Source: an uncultured Flavobacteriaceae bacterium (GTDB lineage: Bacteria; Bacteroidota; Bacteroidia; Flavobacteriales; Flavobacteriaceae). Taken from it: 64,000 nt of DNA. The stretch lies in contig CANNAN010000005.1 in the NCBI GenBank assembly GCA_947502635.1, positions 124,001-188,000 of the forward strand, in the 5' to 3' direction. Position numbers and translations under genes: made by a program. Positions 20,634 to 61,820 of the stretch are shown piece after piece; within the stretch, counting starts at the first letter, position 1; every line of letters starts with the position of its first letter. The notes under the pieces were generated by a model. It searched no databases and was not told the DNA's origin. It was given only the letters and a program-made list of their open reading frames with translations.

Positions 20634-23600
20634 ATGAAAAAAATTACTTCAGTGTTTCGTTCAAGTTTTAAACTAAGAGAACGAAAGATTAAAAACCTTT
20701 TTTGTTTTTTACTAATTATGTTGTGTTTTCAAGCGTTTTCTCAAGATTTTTACAGATTTGGAGGTCTAGGAACAAATGATTCTGGTGGCGTTGGATTTAA
20801 ATTGATTTCTACAACATCAATATTAGCAGCTAGCAACCAAATAACTAATGTTACAGGAGGTATCGTTGGTGCAGAATTGTTTTCCACAAATACAACACCA
20901 GGAGCAACAGCTGTATTTACTATTAAAGCAGATGGAATAAATGCCATATCATTTGATGTGGATGATTTGACTATTTTTAATTACCTATCACCAATTAATG
21001 GTCCATCTACCTATACAACAAGTACTCAGATAGTTTTTAAAAATGCTTTAGGGAATACAATTAGGACAATGACATTGAATGCGAATAAATCCTTGTCTGA
21101 AAACAATTCAGGGGTTTCTATAGGTACTTTCTTTGACAACAATAATGCGTTGCCTGTTACAGGAGTCTCAGAAATTGAATTTACAATTAACCCTTTAACA
21201 GACCAGCCAGATGCATTGACCTTAAAAGGAATAACCATTAGCAATGTGACAGAAGGGACTGTACCAACAGGAGCTGCAACAATAGATTTTAATAATACAG
21301 GAATTACTAATGATAGAAAACTTGGAAAAACAGTTTCACTAGGGCCACTAAGTTTCTCAATAAATTCATTAGCATCAAACGATTTTATTTCTTTTAAAGA
21401 AACCTCGGGGTCTGGAGGAACTGGAGCGCTTTATGACGATAATGCCGATATTGGAGGAGTAACTAAATGGACTATTAAACGTCATGGAGGGGCCGAATTT
21501 GCTGTTTCAAGTATTTATATTCAAGATTCGGGTGTTGGAGCTAGTACTTCGGGTACTCTAAAGGCCTATAAAGATGGAAGCCAGGTAGGTTCAACCGTTA
21601 ATATCAATTTTGATGGAAACCAAGTCTTATCTGGTAATACAGATTTTCAAGATATAGATGAATTATGGATTGAGGCGGTCGATTTAAATGTTTTTATTGA
21701 TAATGTAGTATATTCAATACCATCAAGTTTATCAGTTCCAACAGTAACGACTTCTGCAAGTACCTCGGTTTTGTCTAATGGTGCAACCCTCAATGGTGAT
21801 GTAACATCAGATGGCGGGGCAACCATAACAGAAAGAGGTTTTGTGTATGCATTGACTTCAGACGATGCAACGCCAACAGTAGCAGAATCTGGAGGTGCCA
21901 ATGTAATGAAAGTAATCGTTTCTGGCACTATAGGAAGTTTCAATCAAGTTATTTCGAGTTTGCTCGCTTCTAGTAACTATAGTTTTTCTGCATATGCCAT
22001 AAATAGCGAGGGAACCACAGAAGGTACTATACAAACATTCACCACACATGTTGATTTACCTCATATTTTAAATTTTGAGACTACAGATAATACTAATCTA
22101 GGATCAATCGCAATAGATGGAGAGGGAGGTTCTTCTGATATAAATGGAATACAGTTTGATTTTGAGATACTTGATGCTGCTGGTACTCCAACAAACGGAG
22201 ATGTTATATATAATGAGTTTGGTGGAGAGTATGAAGGATTACATGCTGCACCTAGTGGTTCACTTTGGCGTGGTATGTCGATTAAAACAAGTGGAGGTTC
22301 CGAGTTTGATTTTAATGGTTTTTCAGTATCTGAAAATAATGGGACGGTCATAGTTTTTACTGTTGAAGGTTTTAGGGACGGAAACTCAACGGGTTCGACT
22401 ACAGTCAATCACCCAGGGTTTACCCCAACAACATACACAACATCAGATTTTGCTAATGGAACATTTGGAAATGTTGATGAAATTCGAATTATCGCTAACC
22501 TTAATTTTTCGGGTAACTTCGATAATTTTGCTCTAGGATTATCTGTCACACCTCCAACGATAACCACAACAACAGCTATTTCTGTAGATGCAATTTCAGC
22601 GACATTAGGCGGCGATGTAACCTCAGATGGCGGAGCAACCATAATAGAAAGAGGCTTTGTATATGCATTAACCTCAGATGATGCAACGCCAACAGTGGCG
22701 GAAGCAGGAGGAGCTAACGTAACTAAAGTGATCGTTTCTGGTACTACAGGAAGTTATAATCAAGCCATTTCGAGTTTAATAGCTTCTAGTAATTACAGTT
22801 TCTCTGCATATGCCATAAATAGTCAAGGAACAGCAGAAGGAACAGTGGAGACATTTACAACGTCAAATCCAACGGTAGCTTTTACATCTACTAGCTCTTC
22901 AGGAGCAGAAAATGTGAGCAGTGCAGATTTAGAGGTCTCACTAAGCGCTGTAAGCGGGAGCAATGTATCTGTGGATTATGTCGTGACGGGAACCGCAACA
23001 GGAAGTGGAACCGATTATACCCTGGCAGATGGCTCGTTGACCATTACGGCAGGTGACAGCAATAACGATATAACCATAGGCAGTATAGTGTCCGATGCCA
23101 TTTTGGAAGCGAACGAAACAGTTATAGTAACAATCTCAAACCCAAGCAATGCAACTCTAGGAACAAATCTAATACATACCTATACTATAAATAACGACGA
23201 CAGTGCATCTGTCACCATAGCCGACGTAAGTGGCAATGAAGACGATGGTTCCATAACCGTCACAGCGACACTGGAGAATGCCGTACAGGGTGGATTTACG
23301 GTAGATGTTAGTACTTCGGACGGAACGGCGACCACTGCAGATAGCGATTATACCGCATTAACGAGCCAGACGCTTACCTTTACGGGGACGGCAAGCGAGA
23401 TGCAGACCTTTACGGTCATACCAACAAGTGATAACAAGCTTGAAAGCAATGAAATTTTAACAATAAGTCAATCAAACGTGGCATCAACATCATTGTCAGT
23501 AAACATCACCGATGGTGCCACTGTAACTATTACCAATGATGATTCCGCATCCGTTACTATTGCAGATGTAAGTGGCAACGAGAACGATGGATCGATAACC

Positions 23601-25475
23601 GTAACGGCAACACTGGACAATGCGGTTCAGGGCGGTTTTACAGTAGATGTGAGCACTGCAGACGGAACGGCCACAACGGGAGACAGTGATTATTCAGCGA
23701 TAACAAGCCAGAGCTTATCCTTTACAGGAAATGCCAGCGAAACGCAGACATTTACCGTAACCCCTACTGGAGATACAAAACTAGAAGCCAATGAAACTTT
23801 AACAATAAGTCAATCAAACGTGGCATCAACATCATTGTCAGTAAACATTACCGATGGTGCCACTGTAACTATTACCAATGATGATTCAGCATCCGTTACT
23901 ATTGCAGATGTAAGCGGCAACGAGAACGATGGATCGATAACCGTAACGGCAACACTGGACAATGCGGTTCAAGGCGGTTTTACAGTAGATGTAAGTACTA
24001 CAGACGGAACGGCCACAACGTCAGATAACGATTATTCAGCCGTAACAGACCAGACCTTATCCTTTACAGGAAATGCCAGCGAAACGCAGACATTTACCGT
24101 AACCCCTACTGGGGACACAAAACTGGAAGCCAATGAAACTATTACCATTTCACAGTCAAACTTGGCGGCTACAGTTTTGTCCGTAGCAATTACGGATGGA
24201 GCAACTGTAACCATAAGCAATGATGATTCCGCAACAGTCACCATAGCCGACGTAAGTGGCAATGAAGATGATGGTTCCATAACCGTCACAGCGACACTGG
24301 ACAATGCTGTGCAGGGTGGATTTACAATAGATGTTAGTACTTCGGACGGAACGGCGACCACTGCAGATAGCGATTATACCTCATTAACGGGTCAGACACT
24401 TACCTTTACGGGGACGGCAAGCGAGACGCAGACCTTTACGGTCACGCCAACAAGTGATAACAAGCTTGAAAGCAATGAAACTTTAACAATAAGTCAATCA
24501 AACGTGGCATCAACATCACTGTCAGTAAACATTACCGATGGTGCCACTGTAACTATTACCAATGATGATTCAGCATCCGTTACTATTGCAGATGTAAGCG
24601 GCAACGAGAATGATGGATCGATAACCGTAACGGCAACACTGGACAATGCGGTTCAAGGTGGTTTTACAGTAGATGTGAGTACTGCAGATGGAACGGCCAC
24701 AACGGGAGACAGCGATTATTCAACCGTAACAGGCCAGACCTTATCCTTTACAGGAAACGCCAGCGAAACGCAGACATTTGCCGTAACCCCTACTGGAGAC
24801 ACAAAACTGGAAGCCAATGAAACCATTACCATTTCACAGTCAAACTTGGCGGCTACAGCTTTGTCCGTAACAATTACCGATGGAGCAACTGTAACCATAA
24901 ACAATGATGATTTTCAGGCTACAATAACTACTAGTGATGCAAACCCAATAACATCAAATATGGTTGATTTGGGGGGTGAAGTAACAGCAGAAGGTTCTTC
25001 GTCGGTGATAGCGCGAGGAATAGTATATGCGATTACCTCAGAAAATGCAAACCCTCAAATAGGAGGTGCAAATGTAATTACCGATGATAATGGTGTGGGT
25101 CTAGGTGTTTTTAATGAAACTATTTCTGGCTTGGTAGCTAATACCCAATACTCTTATGTCGCCTATGCAACTAACACTCAAGGTACAAGTTATGGATCGG
25201 TGAAAACATTTTCAACTACAACATTGGGTATAGAAGAAGAGTCGTTAAACGTTTCAATAAATGTATATCCTAATCCAGTTAATAAGATCTTGCACATAAA
25301 AGCTAATAATATCAAGCTTGAGGAAGCAACATTATATAATATTTTAGGAAAAGTTATAAAGAACATTGAAATCGAAAATAAAACGATTGATTTTTCTAGT
25401 ATGGCTAATGGTATCTATCTGTTAAAAATAGTCACTAGTGAAGGAATACTAATAAGGAGAGTTGTTAAGAAATAA
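20634..25475 (+). CDS. Giant Calx-beta/FN3-like adhesin with T9SS type A sorting domain
   Basis: 1613 residues. The leader has an unusually long basic n-region before the hydrophobic core that ends FQAFSQ. Modules in order are: a beta-sandwich region (about 30-210); two related carbohydrate-binding-like regions; two FN3-like modules sharing GFVYALTSDDATPTVAE; one diverged Calx-beta; five Calx-beta units of exactly 114 residues (DDSASVTIADVSGN...); a third FN3-like module; and a C-terminal ~75-residue type A T9SS signal (NVYPNPVNKILHIKA, then ILIRRVVKK). Calx-beta repeats usually bind Ca2+ and stiffen adhesins. The gene is monocistronic between terminators. DNA of the Calx-beta part is visibly richer in G and C than the flanks. 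Confidence 0.9.
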   Translation: MKKITSVFRSSFKLRERKIKNLFCFLLIMLCFQAFSQDFYRFGGLGTNDSGGVGFKLISTTSILAASNQITNVTGGIVGAELFSTNTTPGATAVFTIKADGINAISFDVDDLTIFNYLSPINGPSTYTTSTQIVFKNALGNTIRTMTLNANKSLSENNSGVSIGTFFDNNNALPVTGVSEIEFTINPLTDQPDALTLKGITISNVTEGTVPTGAATIDFNNTGITNDRKLGKTVSLGPLSFSINSLASNDFISFKETSGSGGTGALYDDNADIGGVTKWTIKRHGGAEFAVSSIYIQDSGVGASTSGTLKAYKDGSQVGSTVNINFDGNQVLSGNTDFQDIDELWIEAVDLNVFIDNVVYSIPSSLSVPTVTTSASTSVLSNGATLNGDVTSDGGATITERGFVYALTSDDATPTVAESGGANVMKVIVSGTIGSFNQVISSLLASSNYSFSAYAINSEGTTEGTIQTFTTHVDLPHILNFETTDNTNLGSIAIDGEGGSSDINGIQFDFEILDAAGTPTNGDVIYNEFGGEYEGLHAAPSGSLWRGMSIKTSGGSEFDFNGFSVSENNGTVIVFTVEGFRDGNSTGSTTVNHPGFTPTTYTTSDFANGTFGNVDEIRIIANLNFSGNFDNFALGLSVTPPTITTTTAISVDAISATLGGDVTSDGGATIIERGFVYALTSDDATPTVAEAGGANVTKVIVSGTTGSYNQAISSLIASSNYSFSAYAINSQGTAEGTVETFTTSNPTVAFTSTSSSGAENVSSADLEVSLSAVSGSNVSVDYVVTGTATGSGTDYTLADGSLTITAGDSNNDITIGSIVSDAILEANETVIVTISNPSNATLGTNLIHTYTINNDDSASVTIADVSGNEDDGSITVTATLENAVQGGFTVDVSTSDGTATTADSDYTALTSQTLTFTGTASEMQTFTVIPTSDNKLESNEILTISQSNVASTSLSVNITDGATVTITNDDSASVTIADVSGNENDGSITVTATLDNAVQGGFTVDVSTADGTATTGDSDYSAITSQSLSFTGNASETQTFTVTPTGDTKLEANETLTISQSNVASTSLSVNITDGATVTITNDDSASVTIADVSGNENDGSITVTATLDNAVQGGFTVDVSTTDGTATTSDNDYSAVTDQTLSFTGNASETQTFTVTPTGDTKLEANETITISQSNLAATVLSVAITDGATVTISNDDSATVTIADVSGNEDDGSITVTATLDNAVQGGFTIDVSTSDGTATTADSDYTSLTGQTLTFTGTASETQTFTVTPTSDNKLESNETLTISQSNVASTSLSVNITDGATVTITNDDSASVTIADVSGNENDGSITVTATLDNAVQGGFTVDVSTADGTATTGDSDYSTVTGQTLSFTGNASETQTFAVTPTGDTKLEANETITISQSNLAATALSVTITDGATVTINNDDFQATITTSDANPITSNMVDLGGEVTAEGSSSVIARGIVYAITSENANPQIGGANVITDDNGVGLGVFNETISGLVANTQYSYVAYATNTQGTSYGSVKTFSTTTLGIEEESLNVSINVYPNPVNKILHIKANNIKLEEATLYNILGKVIKNIEIENKTIDFSSMANGIYLLKIVTSEGILIRRVVKK
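23196..24905 (+). repeat. Five tandem 342-base Calx-beta coding repeats
   Basis: Boundaries (GAYGAY at the DDS codons) fall at 23196, 23538, 23880, 24222, 24564 and 24906, an exact 342-base period. Units 1 and 4 are nearly the same DNA, and units 2, 3 and 5 form a second group. Unit 5 combines a unit 2-like front with a unit 3-like back. This suggests block duplication and gene conversion. Confidence 0.9.
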
Positions 25476-54409: not shown

Positions 54410-55537
54410 ATGAATAAAACAGTAAAAATTATTTTAATAATAGTAGCAATCATACTATTAGCATTTGTACTCAAGTATTTTAAAGATTCTAATTCAAAAG
54501 ATGTTGTAGACTATAAAGTTGAAGCTCCTTTTTATACCTCAATAAATACAAAAGCAGTAGCAACAGGTAAATTAAACCCTGAAGAGGAGATTGAGCTTAA
54601 ACCACAAATTTCTGGGATCGTTGACGAAATCTTTGTTGAAGAGGGCGACCTTGTCAAAAAAGGGGATTTAGTTGCTAAGATTAGAGTTGTTCCTAATGAG
54701 CAAAGTTTAGTAAGTGCAAAGAGTAGAATAGCATCTGCGAGATTGTCTTTCGATAATACCAAAGTGTTATATAACAGAAATAAAACATTATTTGACAAAG
54801 GTGTTATCTCTGTCCAGGATTTTGAAAACAGTGAGTTGTCTTTTAACCAAGCGAAAGAATCATTAGTACAAGCACAAAACGATTACCAAATTATTAAAAG
54901 AGGATCTATTTCGGGAGGTAATTCGGCAAATACAAATATTATAGCGCAAATAGCAGGAACTATTTTAGAAATTCCTGTTAGAGAAGGCGATCAGGTGATA
55001 CAAAGTAATAATTTCAACGCAGGAACAACCATCGCAACCATTGCCGATATGAGTCTTATGATTTTTGAAGGTAAAGTTGATGAAGCAGAAGTAGGAAAAC
55101 TAAAAGAAGGCAAAGAAATAAAAGTGATATTAGGAGCCATTAATGACAAAGAGTTTCCTGCAAAGTTAACTTTTGTAGCGCCAAAAGGGAAAGAAGAAAA
55201 TGGAGCTGTTCAATTTACAATTAAAGCAAATGTTGTTATAGATTCTACTACAAATGTAAGAGCGGGTTATAGTGCTAATGCAGAAATAGATATTGAAAGT
55301 AAGGATAGTGTTTTAGCTATTAGAGAGGCGTTACTTCAGTATAACAGAATCACAGAAAAACCTTTTGTTGAAATATTGGATGGTGATAATAAATTCAAAA
55401 AAGAGAATGTTAAGATAGGACTTTCAGATGGCATTAATGTTGAAATTACAGAAGGCGTAAAAGAAGGTGACCAAGTTAAAGTATGGAACAAGGCATCAAA
55501 AGATAATGAGGATAATGATAATAAAGAAAATGATTAA
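54410..55537 (+). CDS. HlyD/MacA-type periplasmic adaptor
   Basis: 375 residues. An N-terminal membrane anchor (about 4-22) is followed by barrel-sandwich halves (GKLNPEEEIELKPQISGIVD, later AQIAGTILEIPVREGDQV), a coiled-coil hairpin between them (about 95-165), a beta-barrel domain and a Lys/Asn/Asp-rich C-terminus. It links the inner-membrane permeases to the TolC-like protein encoded next. Confidence 0.93.
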   Translation: MNKTVKIILIIVAIILLAFVLKYFKDSNSKDVVDYKVEAPFYTSINTKAVATGKLNPEEEIELKPQISGIVDEIFVEEGDLVKKGDLVAKIRVVPNEQSLVSAKSRIASARLSFDNTKVLYNRNKTLFDKGVISVQDFENSELSFNQAKESLVQAQNDYQIIKRGSISGGNSANTNIIAQIAGTILEIPVREGDQVIQSNNFNAGTTIATIADMSLMIFEGKVDEAEVGKLKEGKEIKVILGAINDKEFPAKLTFVAPKGKEENGAVQFTIKANVVIDSTTNVRAGYSANAEIDIESKDSVLAIREALLQYNRITEKPFVEILDGDNKFKKENVKIGLSDGINVEITEGVKEGDQVKVWNKASKDNEDNDNKEND

Positions 55538-55553
55538 GTTTAAATCACTCATA

Positions 55554-56882
55554 ATGAAACAATATTTTTTTATACCAGCATTTTTGTTAGTAGGTTTAAT
55601 AGTATCTGCACAGGAGAAAAAATGGACTTTACAGGAATGCGTTAGCCATGCCTTAGAACATAATATTACAGTACAGCAAACGGAAAACTCTCTATTAATT
55701 AATGAACAAGATATTCTTGCTGCCAAAGGTGGTTTTTTACCATCTGTTAGTGGTGGTTTAGGACAACGTATGAGTATTGGATCTGGTTTCGATCCAGTTA
55801 CTAATCAAAGAATCAATAATCAAACAACCCATTCTTTTAATTATAATTTAAGTGTCAATCAGGATGTGTTTAATGGTTTTAGAACGTTAAACTTATACAA
55901 ACAATCCCGTTTAAATCAAGAGATCACTAATTTAGAACTGGCTAGAATCAAGGATGATATTTCTCTAAATGTTGTCAATGCTTATTTAAATGTTTTGTTT
56001 AACAAAGAGAACTTAGAAACGGCTAAGGCTCAGAATGATTTTTCTGAAAAACAATTACAACAAGTTAAGGATTTAGTTGAAGCTGGTGTACAGCCAAGGG
56101 CTAATATATTTGACGCCGAGGCAACTTTAAGTAGAGATTCTCAACAAGTAACTATAGCCGAAAATAATTTCGATTTAGCCCTACTTACGCTGTCTCAGTT
56201 ACTACAGGTTCCATTTAATGGCTTTTATGTTGAAATTATCGATGTAGAGACACCATCTGAAGCTATTTTATACGATAACGTCTCACCTATTTTAGACTAC
56301 GCATTAGAAAATAGAAATGAAATTAAAATAGCTAAAAAGAATATTGAAAATGCCGAATTGAATACCGAAATTTCTAAATCGGGTTATTTGCCTTCTGTAA
56401 GTTTTGGCTATGGTTTTGGTTCTGTATGGAGTGAATCTAAAAATGATTTCGCTAAGCAAGCCTATTTTAGAGAATTAGATTTGAATAAAGGTCATAACTT
56501 TAATTTAAATGTAAACATTCCTATTTTCTCCAGATTTCAGAATAAAACAGCCGTTGCTAAATCGAAAATTAGAGAATCGAATAGCAAGCTAAGTTTAGAT
56601 CAGGCGAAATTAGATTTAGAGTCTAATATACAAAGAGCCTATACAGATGCACAAGCGGCATTAAAAGCATATATAGCAGCAAAAAGATCCTTAGAGTCAC
56701 AAGAGCTTGCTTTTGAAAATTCTAAAGAACGTTATGATATTGGAAGTATGACCTCTTTTGATCTGGAACAATCAAGGGTACAATTGATTAATTCACAGGC
56801 ATCTTTAATAAATGCGAAGTATGATTTTGTTTTTAAGACAAAAGTTTTAGACTTTTACATGGGAAAATCTTTAACTAATTAA
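55554..56882 (+). CDS. TolC-family outer-membrane efflux protein
   Basis: About 442 residues from ATG 55554, which gives a clean signal peptide (KQYFFIPAFLL, ending VSAQ). The frame is open upstream into the adaptor gene, and an ATG at 55530 overlapping its stop is an alternative. Two OEP repeats are visible (WTLQECVSHALEHNITVQQ; later RNEIKIAKKNIENAELN), with SYGFGSV-like barrel strands. It completes the tripartite exporter. A hairpin terminator follows at once. Confidence 0.93.
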   Translation: MKQYFFIPAFLLVGLIVSAQEKKWTLQECVSHALEHNITVQQTENSLLINEQDILAAKGGFLPSVSGGLGQRMSIGSGFDPVTNQRINNQTTHSFNYNLSVNQDVFNGFRTLNLYKQSRLNQEITNLELARIKDDISLNVVNAYLNVLFNKENLETAKAQNDFSEKQLQQVKDLVEAGVQPRANIFDAEATLSRDSQQVTIAENNFDLALLTLSQLLQVPFNGFYVEIIDVETPSEAILYDNVSPILDYALENRNEIKIAKKNIENAELNTEISKSGYLPSVSFGYGFGSVWSESKNDFAKQAYFRELDLNKGHNFNLNVNIPIFSRFQNKTAVAKSKIRESNSKLSLDQAKLDLESNIQRAYTDAQAALKAYIAAKRSLESQELAFENSKERYDIGSMTSFDLEQSRVQLINSQASLINAKYDFVFKTKVLDFYMGKSLTN

Positions 56883-56963: not shown

Positions 56964-57650
56964 ATGAGTACATACATTCTAAATATAGAAACGGCAACAA
57001 CCAACTGTTCGGTATCACTTTCACAGGGTGGAGAAACCATCGTTTTAAAAGAAGATTACGATAAAAACTATTCGCATGCCGAAAGGCTACATATTTATAT
57101 TGATGAAGTATTAAAGGAAGCCAAAGTGTCTTCAGGGAATATAGAGGCTATTGCTGTAAGTAAAGGCCCTGGATCTTATACAGGTTTACGAATTGGAGTT
57201 TCGGCGGCAAAAGGACTTTGTTATGCTTTAGATAAGCCCCTAATTTCTGTTTCCACATTAGAAGCTTTGGCGCATCAGGTTACCACTTGTGATGAAGCTG
57301 TTATTATTTCCATGCTAGATGCCAGAAGGATGGAAGTATATTCAGCTGTTTTTGATGCCGATTATAATCAAATTAGAGAAACCGAAGCACAAATATTGGA
57401 TGAAAGCTCTTTTAAAGATTATTTAGAAGCAGGAAACGTTTACTTTATTGGAAATGGCGTTGAAAAAGCTAAAACATTAATTAAACATCCTAATGCTATT
57501 TTTATTGATGGTAAGTTACCATCAGCAAATGAAATGAGTCTTTTGGCTTACAATAAATACAAAATAAACGACACCGAAGATGTCGCTTATTTTGAGCCTT
57601 ATTATTTGAAAGACTTTGTGGCTTTGAAGCCTAAACCAAAGTTACCCTAA
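56964..57650 (+). CDS. tsaB: tRNA threonylcarbamoyladenosine biosynthesis protein TsaB
   Basis: 228 residues, actin-like ASKHA fold. Diagnostic segments are LNIETATTNCSVSLS at the N-terminus and VSKGPGSYTGLRIGVSAAKG. TsaB partners TsaD and TsaE in making t6A37 on tRNAs that read ANN codons. I chose ATG 56964 because the open frame upstream (TTG 56919) is encoded by the hairpin at 56914-56948. The stop abuts a decayed mscS tail on the other strand. Confidence 0.95.
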   Translation: MSTYILNIETATTNCSVSLSQGGETIVLKEDYDKNYSHAERLHIYIDEVLKEAKVSSGNIEAIAVSKGPGSYTGLRIGVSAAKGLCYALDKPLISVSTLEALAHQVTTCDEAVIISMLDARRMEVYSAVFDADYNQIRETEAQILDESSFKDYLEAGNVYFIGNGVEKAKTLIKHPNAIFIDGKLPSANEMSLLAYNKYKINDTEDVAYFEPYYLKDFVALKPKPKLP

Positions 57651-57721
57651 GCTTTTTTGTGAATATCGACTTTGGGTAGTCGGATTTCTATAAAGTCTAT
57701 TGTCTTATAGGTAAGTATCAT
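57647..57721 (-). pseudogene. Remnant of an mscS 3' end
   Basis: On the minus strand, the last codons before the TAG at 57649-57647 read IEIRLPKVDIHKKA. The intact mscS at 61011-61820 ends IEIPYPQVDIHKKA. DNA similarity is also clear for about 45 bases (57647-57693 against 61011-61057). Upstream the frame is only 24 codons from an ATG at 57721 and is preceded by a stop, so it is not a functional channel. It overlaps the tsaB stop by 4 bases. It appears to be the original or duplicated end of mscS left beside tsaB. Confidence 0.7.
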
Positions 57722-57797
57722 TTATTTTGACTTTTATAAAACGGTCAAAAATTTATCTATTTGGTTTAAGTTGAACAAACCTTGACTATTAATACAG

Positions 57798-58763
57798 TTA
57801 CTTTTTTATAAATCGGCTTCTGTAACTTTTATTATTTTGATCTTTTGCAACGATTAAATAAGTTCCCTTGCTTATATCTGAAACATTGATTGGGTTTATA
57901 ATAATATGATTAGTGAGACTTTTTATTTTCTTCCCAGTCATATCAATAATATTAATTTCTTTAAAAAGATTTATGCCCATATCTTTTCCTCCCAAAAATA
58001 ATAAGTTGGTAGTTGGGTTGGGATATGGAATAACATCTTTATCTAGTATAGGATCATCGGTACCAAGAGTGCAAAATTCCCAACTACCAAAATTTAAAGA
58101 AAGAAAAGCATCTGTTTCTAAAAGTTCACAATTTGTAGGACAATATTCTGTACAAGCATAAAAACCATAGATTCCACTCTCGGTTACGGTTATTGAGGAA
58201 CTTGTTTCGCCAGGTATGATCCCTGGGTCTTCTGGAGCTGGAGGTATTACCGTTGGAATGTCTCTGTACCAGGTATGTTTTCCATATAGTAAATTGAAAA
58301 AATTTGAAAGCTGAACTTTACTACCATTGCATATATTAAAAACACCTGCATCTGTGTTCTTGAAAGAGCCTTCTTCAAACTCTGCAACTATTGATGGAAA
58401 AGCATATGCGTAACCGTCTATTAAAACAAAGTTGCTCTCGGCAGTACATTTGCCTTTAGTAACTACTACTTTAAAATGATGTAGCATATCATTTAGTCCT
58501 GTGGCTAATAGTGTTGAAGATGTTGCTCCTGGAACTGGCTCGAAAGCATCACTGGTAAAATATTTTCGATACCATTGATATGTATCGAAATCATTTGATA
58601 TAGACAATAATTCTGAATCTTTTTCCTCATTACATAGTACCACACTATCGGGGGCAAAATCAAGAAATCCTAATCGAGGACTGGTAATTATTGGGGAGCA
58701 ATCTTGTGCATTAATAGTTGCACTAAAAACAAAAAAGAGAAGTAGAGTTTTAATTTTTTTCAT
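57798..58763 (-). CDS. Secreted protein with T9SS type A sorting domain
   Basis: 321 residues. A signal peptide ending TINAQ is followed by two Ig-like regions, each with cysteines and an aromatic pattern such as YQWYRKYF and HTWYRD. The C-terminal type A T9SS domain starts at VIPYPNPTTNLLFLGG and ends in NKSYRSRFIKK. It is probably displayed at, or released from, the cell surface; function unknown. It lies directly downstream of the TPR/HTH regulator on the same strand, 112 bases away, with a 14-bp direct repeat in the gap. Confidence 0.88.
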   Translation of the reverse strand: MKKIKTLLLFFVFSATINAQDCSPIITSPRLGFLDFAPDSVVLCNEEKDSELLSISNDFDTYQWYRKYFTSDAFEPVPGATSSTLLATGLNDMLHHFKVVVTKGKCTAESNFVLIDGYAYAFPSIVAEFEEGSFKNTDAGVFNICNGSKVQLSNFFNLLYGKHTWYRDIPTVIPPAPEDPGIIPGETSSSITVTESGIYGFYACTEYCPTNCELLETDAFLSLNFGSWEFCTLGTDDPILDKDVIPYPNPTTNLLFLGGKDMGINLFKEINIIDMTGKKIKSLTNHIIINPINVSDISKGTYLIVAKDQNNKSYRSRFIKK

Positions 58764-58837
58764 TGGGTTTAATTTTAATTAATTTTAGATTACCAATGAT
58801 ACTGGAGTTAATTTATAATAAGCTGTTTTTAATTACT

Positions 58838-58873
58838 ACAAATTGTGACATATTACGTGACAAATTGTGACAT
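58838..58873 (-). promoter_or_regulatory. Candidate operator: two 14-bp direct repeats, 22-bp period
   Basis: ACAAATTGTGACAT occurs at 58838-58851 and again, identically, at 58860-58873. Starts are 22 bp apart, about two helical turns. The pair lies 75-110 bases upstream of the minus-strand T9SS gene start and just after the stop of the regulator gene. This layout fits an activator site for two dimers. Binding is inferred, not shown. Confidence 0.55.
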
Positions 58874-58875
58874 GT

Positions 58876-60555
58876 CTAATAAATCTGAGAAAATAGTTGG
58901 TATAATGAAGTAATAGAGGTAAGGTTTAGTTTCTTTTTGAGTCTTTCTTTTCTTTTACGGCAAGCTTCGGGTGTTATATTTAGTACTGAAGCTATTTCCT
59001 TATTGTTTAAATTTAAGTAAATATAGGAGATAAATCGAATATCATTTGCATTTAAATCAGGGTGTCTTGCTTTAAGAGTTTTAATAAACGTACTATTAAT
59101 ATTTTCGAAAGAAGACGAAAACTCATTCCATTTTACACTATCTTTTAAATGTTGTTTTAAGCTAGAAGTAGCTTTTTTAAGGGCGTCATTTTTAGGTGTT
59201 TCATCAATTTTAGAAATAGATTCTACCACCTCTTCAATAAGTTCGTTTCTGGTAGATTGAAAAAGGACTTTATTATATAGTTCTTTATTTTTTTCTTCAA
59301 TTTTGTGCTTAAGCTTTAGAACTTTGGCTTCTTCTAAAACGACTTTTAACTGTTTCTTTTCAAGTTCTTTATTTAATAATAACGAGGTGTTTTTTTCATG
59401 CTGTAATTTTAATTCATTTAATCTTAAGTTATTCTCAGCAATTATTCTCTTTTGATTAGAGTTTTCCTTTTTCTTATGTTGAACGGAAATTAAAAGTAGC
59501 ATTATCATTAAAATAAAAAATGTAATAATGATATATGTTCGCTTTTGGTTATTGGAGACTATTTTGCTTATTGCTAAGTCATTTTGAGATTGTTTTAATT
59601 CAAACTGCAACTTCGAATTTTTTAGAAGTTGTTTTTCTTCTTTATCATAAATAAGCTTGGTAAGTTTAATAATACTGTCTTTAGCTACAATCGCTTTTTC
59701 TAAATCGTGTAAGTTATAGGCTATTTTAAATTGCTGCTTAAATATCTCGATTTTTTTACTACTATTAAAACAGCTTTTCAATGCATTTGCCAGATATTTA
59801 TTTGCTAAACTCCATTCTTTTAAATCTGAATGGGCTGTTGCCAACAAAAAATTTATTTTACTCACTAAATTTACCTCGACCTCTAATAATGCATCTTGAT
59901 TTAAATTGATAGCTTCAACTAAAAGTTTCTCAAGTTTTTTGATGGCATGACGATAATTCCCTTTCTTCATTAAAATACAATATTTAAGAACTAACGCATT
60001 GAGATGTGCATAAGGAACTTCTTCTAAATTAGGTAAAGCTTCCATTAAATATTTGTTGGCTATATCTAAATTATTTTCAAATAAATTAAGCTCTGCGAGA
60101 TTTGAAGCATAAAAGCCTATTTTAACATTTTTATTAGTCTTTCTAGCAATACTGTATGCTCGCTTTAAATAAGCTTTGGCTTTTTTATGATCTTCATCTT
60201 TCAAGAAAACCAAAGCAATATTATTTAGCATGGTCATTTTTTCTTCATCCGAATTATTTTCCAAAGCAATTTCATAGGCTTTTAAATAATATTTTATTGC
60301 GTTGCTATAATCGGACATTTTAAAATAAATGAGTCCTATATTGTTGTTTGATAAAAATGCCTCTCTCTTAAAACCTTCTTTGTAAGCAATCTCTCTGGCT
60401 TCAAAAAGAAAATCTAGTTGTTTTGTGTAATCATTTTTAAGTGAGTTTTCTAGAGCATTTTCTATCAAAATGTTACATGTATCAATTTCAGAATTTTGAG
60501 AAAAAGTGATATTGATAAAAAGAATATATAATATATAACTGATATATAATTTCAA
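58876..60555 (-). CDS. Membrane-bound TPR regulator with C-terminal LuxR-like HTH
   Basis: 559 residues. An N-terminal signal or anchor sequence (ending ITFSQ) is followed by TPR helices (about 25-320; NNIGLIYFKMSDYSNAIKYY, NNIALVFLKDEDHKKAKAYL). One transmembrane helix (about 338-357, IIITFFILMIMLLLISV), a long coiled coil (about 360-430) and a C-terminal HTH (about 498-555; LNANDIRFISYIYLNLNNKE then IASVLNITPEACRKRKERL) complete it. The layout is a periplasmic sensor joined through the membrane to a cytoplasmic DNA-binding domain, common in Bacteroidota. It probably controls the adjacent T9SS gene. Confidence 0.85.
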   Translation of the reverse strand: MKLYISYILYILFINITFSQNSEIDTCNILIENALENSLKNDYTKQLDFLFEAREIAYKEGFKREAFLSNNNIGLIYFKMSDYSNAIKYYLKAYEIALENNSDEEKMTMLNNIALVFLKDEDHKKAKAYLKRAYSIARKTNKNVKIGFYASNLAELNLFENNLDIANKYLMEALPNLEEVPYAHLNALVLKYCILMKKGNYRHAIKKLEKLLVEAINLNQDALLEVEVNLVSKINFLLATAHSDLKEWSLANKYLANALKSCFNSSKKIEIFKQQFKIAYNLHDLEKAIVAKDSIIKLTKLIYDKEEKQLLKNSKLQFELKQSQNDLAISKIVSNNQKRTYIIITFFILMIMLLLISVQHKKKENSNQKRIIAENNLRLNELKLQHEKNTSLLLNKELEKKQLKVVLEEAKVLKLKHKIEEKNKELYNKVLFQSTRNELIEEVVESISKIDETPKNDALKKATSSLKQHLKDSVKWNEFSSSFENINSTFIKTLKARHPDLNANDIRFISYIYLNLNNKEIASVLNITPEACRKRKERLKKKLNLTSITSLYQLFSQIY

Positions 60556-61010
60556 TTTAGAATGTTTACTGGGTTTAAATACAAGATGGAAGAAATTTAA
60601 AAAAGTTGCGTCAAAATGTGTGGCAACGGTTTTTGAAGGCGCAGTAAGAAGCCCTTTACTTTTGGGCTTGCATCAAGAAAATATTTAAATCTCTTTTTTC
60701 TTAAACGTTAAAACTTTGTTTTGGTGTTACCAGCTCAAAGTATAGAACTTATTCAATAGATAATAGAATTGGTATTTTAAAGGCGTTTAACTTTTTCTTT
60801 TAAGAAGGTAGTCTTATTTCTTCTTTATGTTAATTTAACAGTTTTCGCTGTTTTTATAGTATGGCTACCGCTAGTATTTACTAGTAGCGTCAGAGATTGG
60901 AGTTTAAGATTGAAAAAACACCCATTTATAGAGATTTTAAACATAAAAAAAACCTCACTCTTGTGAGTGAGGTTAAATACTGCTTAATAAATTGTTTTTT
61001 ACTTATAACT
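60556..61010. other. Intergenic region between the regulator and mscS
   Basis: No gene was seen. It contains several small hairpins: GTTGC/GCAAC around 60605-60627, AAGCCC (60649-60654) with GGGCTT (60664-60669), an imperfect repeat around 60864-60888 (CTAGTATTTACTAG), and the mscS terminator. A plus-strand open frame from 60897 runs into mscS on the opposite strand and is not a gene. No exact promoter box for the regulator was found. Confidence 0.5.
60943..60974 (-). terminator. Terminator of the minus-strand mscS operon
   Basis: AACCTCACTC (60951-60960) pairs with GAGTGAGGTT (60965-60974). On the minus strand the stem is followed by a run of T (plus-strand A run at 60944-60952), about 37 bases after the mscS stop. 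Confidence 0.85.
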
Positions 61011-61820
61011 CTAAGCCTTTTTATGAATATCAACCTGTGGGTATGGAATTTCTATACCAGCAGCATCCAGAGCGATTTTACATTTCTCGAGCGTACCAAA
61101 ATACACATCCCAATAGTCATCTACGGTAGACCATGGACGAACCGCAAAATTAACAGAACTATCTGCTAACTCAGAAACATTAACAGTAGGTTCTGGATCT
61201 TGAAGTACTTGCGAATTAGATGTTAGAACATGCATTATAACATCTTTAGTTTGTTTTATATCGGCGTCATAGCTTACACCAATAGTTAAGTCTACACGTA
61301 GTTTCCCTTCGGTAGAATAGTTAGTAATGTTTCCGTTGGATAATGTGCCATTGGGAATAATAACTTCTTTATTAGTTGGCGTTAAAATTTTAGTTGTAAA
61401 GATTTCAATTTCTTTCACAACACCAAGTTCCCCTTGTGCTTCGATTAAATCACCAATTTTAATAGGTTTAAATACCATAAGCAAAACACCACCAGCAAAA
61501 TTACCTAAAGAACCTTGTAGTGCCATGCCAATAGCTAAACCAGCAGCTGCTAAAATGGCTGCGAAAGATGTTGTTTCTACACCTAACTGTGATAAAATAG
61601 CTAAAAATAATAGTATTTTTAAAATCCAACTAATTAAATTAAGTAAGAACTTTTGTAAACTAGCATCATAATTAGCTTTGGTCATTACTTTGGCAACCAT
61701 TTTATTGGCTTTTTTTATGAGCCAGGAACCAATGATCCATATAACAATGGCACCAATGATTTTTATTCCGTAGTTTTTGGCAAATGTGAGGCCTAAATCA
61801 GTCCATTTTTCTAAATCCAT
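61011..61820 (-). CDS. mscS: Small-conductance mechanosensitive channel, MscS family
   Basis: 269 residues, near the length of E. coli MscS. Three hydrophobic helices, with the pore-lining third helix rich in Gly and Ala (AAILAAAGLAIGMALQGSLG) followed by NFAGGVLLMVFKPIKIGDLI, then the beta domain (PNGTLSNGNITNYS) and the C-terminal alpha/beta domain. It opens on hypo-osmotic shock. Last gene of the minus-strand group that starts beyond the window edge. A degenerate copy of its final codons lies at 57647-57721, next to tsaB. Confidence 0.95.
   Translation of the reverse strand: MDLEKWTDLGLTFAKNYGIKIIGAIVIWIIGSWLIKKANKMVAKVMTKANYDASLQKFLLNLISWILKILLFLAILSQLGVETTSFAAILAAAGLAIGMALQGSLGNFAGGVLLMVFKPIKIGDLIEAQGELGVVKEIEIFTTKILTPTNKEVIIPNGTLSNGNITNYSTEGKLRVDLTIGVSYDADIKQTKDVIMHVLTSNSQVLQDPEPTVNVSELADSSVNFAVRPWSTVDDYWDVYFGTLEKCKIALDAAGIEIPYPQVDIHKKA

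Follow-up and report, generated by a model that had tools for sequence, protein, structure and literature searches.

Integrative elements that enter genes at their 3′ ends duplicate the gene end and restore it. Insertion with a long target duplication has been described in Helicobacter pylori (Nobusato et al. 2000, as cited in PMC1643837, PMC3031569, and PMC4978471); in the passages of the citing papers that deal with these cases, restriction-modification genes lie between long direct repeats, and one passage calls the event possibly site-specific. In homology-facilitated illegitimate recombination, as outlined in a passage of PMC3240628, one end of the exchange is set by homology and the other is illegitimate. 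Here we analyze the junction between the convergent genes tsaB and mscS in a stretch of 64,000 nucleotides (the window; contig CANNAN010000005.1) from the 5.4-Mb genome of a marine Flavivirga-like bacterium. Two genes, one encoding a predicted secreted protein and the other a putative regulator, lie between tsaB and mscS, and beside tsaB stands a second, degenerate mscS 3′ end. Comparison with relatives gives good support for an insertion between these two genes.

The features of the region, in window coordinates, are the following.

56964–57650, plus strand: tsaB (TIGR03725, 170.9 bits; PF00814); its 3′ end runs into the tail copy of mscS, so that the stop codons of the two overlap
57644–57692, minus strand: decayed duplicate of the final 15 mscS codons, stop included; 49-nt direct repeat, 76% identical ungapped
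57798–58763, minus strand: gene 1 of the putative insert, encoding a 321-aa protein with a type IX secretion system (T9SS) sorting tail (TIGR04183/PF18962)
58876–60555, minus strand: gene 2 of the putative insert, encoding a TPR protein (TPR_12, 1.6e-20) with a C-terminal LuxR/GerE-like helix-turn-helix (HTH) domain (GerE, 2.3e-4)
60856–60890, no strand assigned: copy of a dispersed REP-like repeat within the insert; score of 50 to the repeat of a cluster in congener G010
60989–61013, no strand assigned: 25-nt flank of the insert on the mscS side, taking in the mscS stop; 21/25 identical to F. aquimarina and 18/25 to F. jejuensis
61008–61056, minus strand: intact copy of the 49-nt direct repeat at the mscS 3′ end
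61011–61820, minus strand: intact mscS, an MscS-type channel of 269 aa (PF00924, PF21082); 94% identical to mscS of congener G005

The minus strand beside tsaB ends IEIRLPKVDIHKKA-stop, and the intact mscS ends IEIPYPQVDIHKKA-stop. A repeat search returned these two ends as an ungapped direct repeat with a spacing of 3364. In a local gapped alignment of the tail with the intact mscS end, 39 of 47 columns were identical, giving a score of 50. The intact end, shuffled 2000 times with a first-order Markov model, never reached that score (maximum 30), nor did any of 640 insert windows (maximum 19); these controls ruled out a chance match as the origin of the tail. Bases 57693–57797 had no further mscS similarity, their score of 21 being reached by 184 of 500 shuffles, and thus no longer mscS remnant extends past 57692. 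A first-pass annotation of this DNA had described a decayed second mscS 3′ end beside tsaB, forming a degenerate direct repeat of about 45 bases at both ends of the insert, and had proposed aligning the two ends; the alignment bore out the second end and the repeat, with a match above chance. The same annotation ran the tail to 57721, which is too far, because the similarity ends at 57692.

The REP-like repeat has the sequence GCTACCGCTAGCATTTGCTAGTGGCG and matches in several genomes of the genus; in G010 (L164 1590–5673), 14 REP-like copies surround two similar open reading frames (ORFs), one of which matches Y1_Tnp. REP transposition was rejected as the source of the 49-nt repeat, because that repeat is mscS coding sequence and the REP-like copy sits within the insert.

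The state of the junction in relatives was determined with a genus set of 12 species genomes, the window's own included, and thus 11 congeners. Those with names are Flavivirga: F. jejuensis (G007), F. aquimarina (G004), F. rizhaonensis (G008), F. amylovorans (G006), and F. algicola (G011). A broader sample comprised 60 genomes, own included, all of which matched tsaB (G039 only weakly). Nine of the 11 congeners have tsaB and mscS as convergent genes that adjoin each other, the aligned coding ends, stops included, being spaced by 8 bp in seven, 5 bp in one, and 73 bp in one. We also scored 51 public tsaB loci for an mscS match, and for its distance, within the fetched stretch of each. The match lay within 222 bp of tsaB in 32 loci and farther away in two (4.5 kb in F. 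jejuensis and 3.0 kb in F. aquimarina), and 17 had no mscS match in that stretch; thus 32 of the 34 loci having both genes were empty between them. Six of these 32 are genomes of congeners already counted, two (L097 and L108) hold a partial mscS at a contig end, and in one (L109) the match is only 47% identical. The mscS end was present once in the empty junctions inspected, and none of the 11 congeners carries genes 1 and 2 at this junction.

Because the junction is empty in so many congeners and public loci, the approximately 3.3 kb in the window is well supported as an insertion between convergent tsaB and mscS, as the first-pass annotation had argued. The comparison with relatives suggested there gave direct convergence where the two genes are lacking. 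To judge from the distribution of empty junctions, tsaB directly beside mscS is likely the ancestral state, from which the window would have gained about 3.3 kb. The rearrangement offered as an alternative, taken as a translocation, was rejected because the order tolC-tsaB / mscS-DUF1304-dsbH is identical in all 11 congeners.

Family matches were consistent with the earlier description of the segment as holding a T9SS cargo gene and a TPR/HTH regulator, the GerE match of gene 2 being weak and under the family cut-off. Apart from its sorting tail, gene 1 has no family match; NF038113 matches it by the tail only, with a score far under the family cut-off. A single-sequence structure prediction for its protein, with a mean predicted local distance difference test score of 32.7, was not used. 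Gene 2 adjoins gene 1 upstream on the same strand, has an uncertain TTG start, and encodes a protein with one membrane helix as judged by eye. We infer that gene 2, the putative regulator, may control the cargo gene 1. No integrase was recognized in a family search of the two genes, which agrees with the first reading of the segment.

Among the 60 genomes, gene 2 was found (E ≤ 1e-30) in the window genome, G010, and G016, and gene 1 (E ≤ 1e-8) in the window genome, G010, and G040. The gene 1 homologs are 73% identical in G010 and 46% in G040, and the gene 2 homolog in G010 is 76% identical; at these thresholds the two-gene module was not found in 10 of the 11 congeners. In a family-wide draw of 397 genomes, with up to five candidates scored per genome and G010 evidently outside the draw, gene 1 was detected (E ≤ 1e-20) in the window genome and one other. 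G010 carries the two genes next to each other, with homology restricted to window positions 57803–60537 and a DNA identity of 78%. There the pair adjoins a phoX-labeled gene near rimP, about 66 kb from the empty tsaB-mscS junction of that genome; in the window genome the pair is missing from the corresponding stretch, phoX-usp-rimP-nusA. Provisional labels are used for phoX, usp, rimP, nusA, polA, pde, and pdaA. The identity of the pair is close to that of tsaB (77.9%) and dsbH (78.6%) between the same genomes, so that the pair may be old and have relocated, or may have been acquired separately. G150 has distant homologs of genes 1 and 2 in the same order, and so the two look like a recurring unit.

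The two congeners with a distant mscS contain other genes at the same junction. The F. aquimarina insert encodes a leucine-rich repeat (LRR) protein with a weak, sub-threshold match to the T9SS tail, and the F. jejuensis insert holds GNAT, rhodanese, and LysR-type genes plus three ORFs without Pfam matches. Genes 1 and 2 of the window had no tblastn match in either insert. The 181 bp next to mscS are common to F. aquimarina and F. jejuensis (82% identical), and the window resembles both over the 25-nt flank that runs up to the mscS stop. Of the 40,948 AT-rich 25-mers that 14 loci supplied, only two have at least 21 identities, the count seen with F. aquimarina: the window itself and, by position, one at the F. 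aquimarina site. The joins on the tsaB side are unlike among the three genomes. Alike flanks on the mscS side together with unlike joins on the tsaB side are the pattern expected if mscS provides the homology. An mscS tail beside tsaB was undetectable in F. aquimarina and F. jejuensis; both scored 16, which 677 and 766, respectively, of 2000 shuffles also attained.

A single, vertically inherited insertion in the three insert-bearing genomes was rejected on a tree that does not group them, although its deep forks are poorly supported; F. aquimarina groups with G003 (100/91). The tree was built from 8,169 aligned bases of four of the eight genes tried, in a region about 67–76 kb away from the junction. 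The four genes left out are present in 8 of the 12 genomes only, and G010 is represented by one partial gene.

In two other genera, tsaB is separated from a different MscS-like gene by 1,754 bp (G029) and 4,191 bp (G032) between alignment ends. These gaps (L145 3508–5249 and L146 3292–7449) contain two long ORFs each.

We favor, with somewhat less than even confidence, recombination anchored on mscS together with an illegitimate join inside the tail of the resident mscS, leaving a scar beside tsaB. In an ancestor with tsaB and mscS as immediate convergent neighbors, a two-gene accessory module would have entered the junction as DNA in which the module was already joined to an mscS gene. Homologous recombination would have occurred on the mscS side, and an illegitimate join on the other, within the terminal ~46 bp of the resident gene. 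What stayed beside tsaB would then be the resident tail, a non-functional scar; the intact mscS would be either the incoming gene or a hybrid.

The divergence of the tail is relevant to this mechanism. An in-register comparison of the tail with the intact end gives 11 differences over 45 codon bases, seven of these differences falling at third positions (binomial p = 0.039). Because of this excess, part of the divergence may predate loss of function in the tail copy; it is a hint that some changes arose under selection, in the resident allele before it was cut off. Both the tail and the intact mscS have PQVD in place of PHQVE. Among orthologs more than 60% identical this is otherwise found only in G005, and PQ.D is also present in more distant MscS proteins such as L031. 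The common PQVD indicates that tail and intact gene are both of this lineage's allele type. They also have a TAG stop in common, whereas mscS of G005 ends in TAA.

Several observations weigh against mscS-anchored recombination. No donor with mscS adjoining the module was found. The body of the window mscS is sister to that of G005 (support 97/93), whose junction is empty, and it is only 77% identical to mscS of F. aquimarina and F. jejuensis; an exchange exactly at the stop codon would therefore be needed to explain the flank of 25 nt that they share with the window. Identity to the G005 gene is 86–95% per 100 nt, with no clear breakpoint. The third-position bias is drawn from just 11 differences. 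The 18/25 match to F. jejuensis is unexceptional, six of the 40,948 25-mers reaching 18. The best match of the tail is the mscS of its own genome, which is also predicted by a target duplication.

Such an insertion with long target duplication accounts for the data nearly as well, although we lean away from it. The module would have entered the mscS 3′ end, the insertion would have copied a target of ~49 bp, and the copy on the tsaB side would have decayed unselected; the route might be Campbell-type integration of a tail-bearing circle or, alternatively, template switching. It would account for a direct repeat that flanks the insert and is single copy in empty relatives, and for a tail that is closest to its own mscS (score of 50, against 43 for G011 and 40 for G005) and has the same TAG stop. 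However, 76% identity with an excess of third-position changes is unlike pure neutral decay, and F. aquimarina and F. jejuensis have no detectable tail.

Site-specific integration into a gene end, as the first-pass annotation had suggested, is improbable. An element with a tyrosine recombinase would have used the mscS 3′ end as attB and restored the gene end, the tail would be attR, and the integrase would have been lost later. A target at a gene 3′ end, a core of about 49 bp, a restored gene end, and an insert end that is alike in three genomes would all fit. We nevertheless consider it not supported, because no recombinase was recognized in any of the three inserts (three F. jejuensis ORFs had no Pfam match) and no duplicated tail, here the expected attR, was detectable in the two other insert-bearing congeners; the insert is also just 3.3 kb. 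In a search of the 12 genus genomes for further copies of the mscS end, none of the matches listed had E < 0.04 besides mscS itself; this carries little weight, because the known tail at 57644 was missed too and decayed copies may exist. Tandem duplication of mscS, with near-total loss of the copy next to tsaB and acquisition of the module in the gap, has precedent in neighboring mscS-like genes of other genera (G031, beside tsaB; G021; G042), but it is similarly improbable, since only a single close mscS (E ≤ 1e-90) was found per congener in all 11, no further mscS similarity lies between the tail and gene 1, and more steps are required.

At the level of the genus, the insertion is probably old, because four-fold sites of mscS differ between the window and G005 at 36 of 103 positions. 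In line with the favored mechanism, the tsaB-mscS locus looks recombinogenic: the mscS alleles of the genus form strongly different groups, and six of the 11 congeners have a highly divergent tolC. For mscS, the window, G002, G003, G005, and G010 group together (100/100); DUF1304 and dsbH are more alike than mscS, whose low identity begins and ends near the gene limits. The protein identity of tolC (55467–56882), just upstream of tsaB, is 38–50% in six congeners and 77–92% in the other five. Divergent tolC adjoins well-conserved tsaB, and the 3′ end of tolC is better conserved; this mosaic pattern suggests allele replacement.

It is conceivable but unlikely that the junction is a recombinase-free slot for gene exchange in the genus, with mscS and a short downstream flank as the fixed homologous end and cargo joined variably on the tsaB side. 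If so, the swapped cargo would be a T9SS protein with its regulator, an LRR protein, or GNAT/rhodanese/LysR genes.

Two further observations concern other parts of the region. In G003 (L067) the dsbH match starts about 0.86 kb past DUF1304 and covers residues 238–583, whereas in the other 10 congeners the gene follows directly; the sequence past DUF1304 is thus different in G003. The window also contains, at 23184–24851, five direct repeats with a 342-nt period, copies 2–5 being 71–92% like the first over 300 nt.

The scar points to the entry, with no apparent help from a recombinase, of a rarely carried secretion gene and a putative regulator into a conserved junction of housekeeping genes. 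Within the genus, differing accessory genes sit at the tsaB-mscS junction, which helps to explain the turnover of secreted-protein repertoires in marine Flavobacteriaceae. Like gene-3′-end integrative elements, the locus has an attL/attR-like repeat with a restored mscS end; unlike them, it has a small insert in which no integrase was recognized. Homology-facilitated illegitimate recombination, as the available description presents it, would fit the alike mscS-side flanks and unlike tsaB-side joins. As in the H. pylori cases, so far as the cited passages describe them, accessory genes lie between long chromosomal direct repeats that are single copy when the site is empty. Unlike those cases, the window holds a T9SS cargo gene and a regulator (Por_Secre_tail, TPR/GerE) and no restriction-modification genes, although in the same passages the link to restriction-modification is an association and not a strict requirement; the window repeat has also decayed to 76% and is known from comparison between species only. 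The tsaB-mscS insertion thus clearly exemplifies a type of event that is already known and does not amount to a new system.

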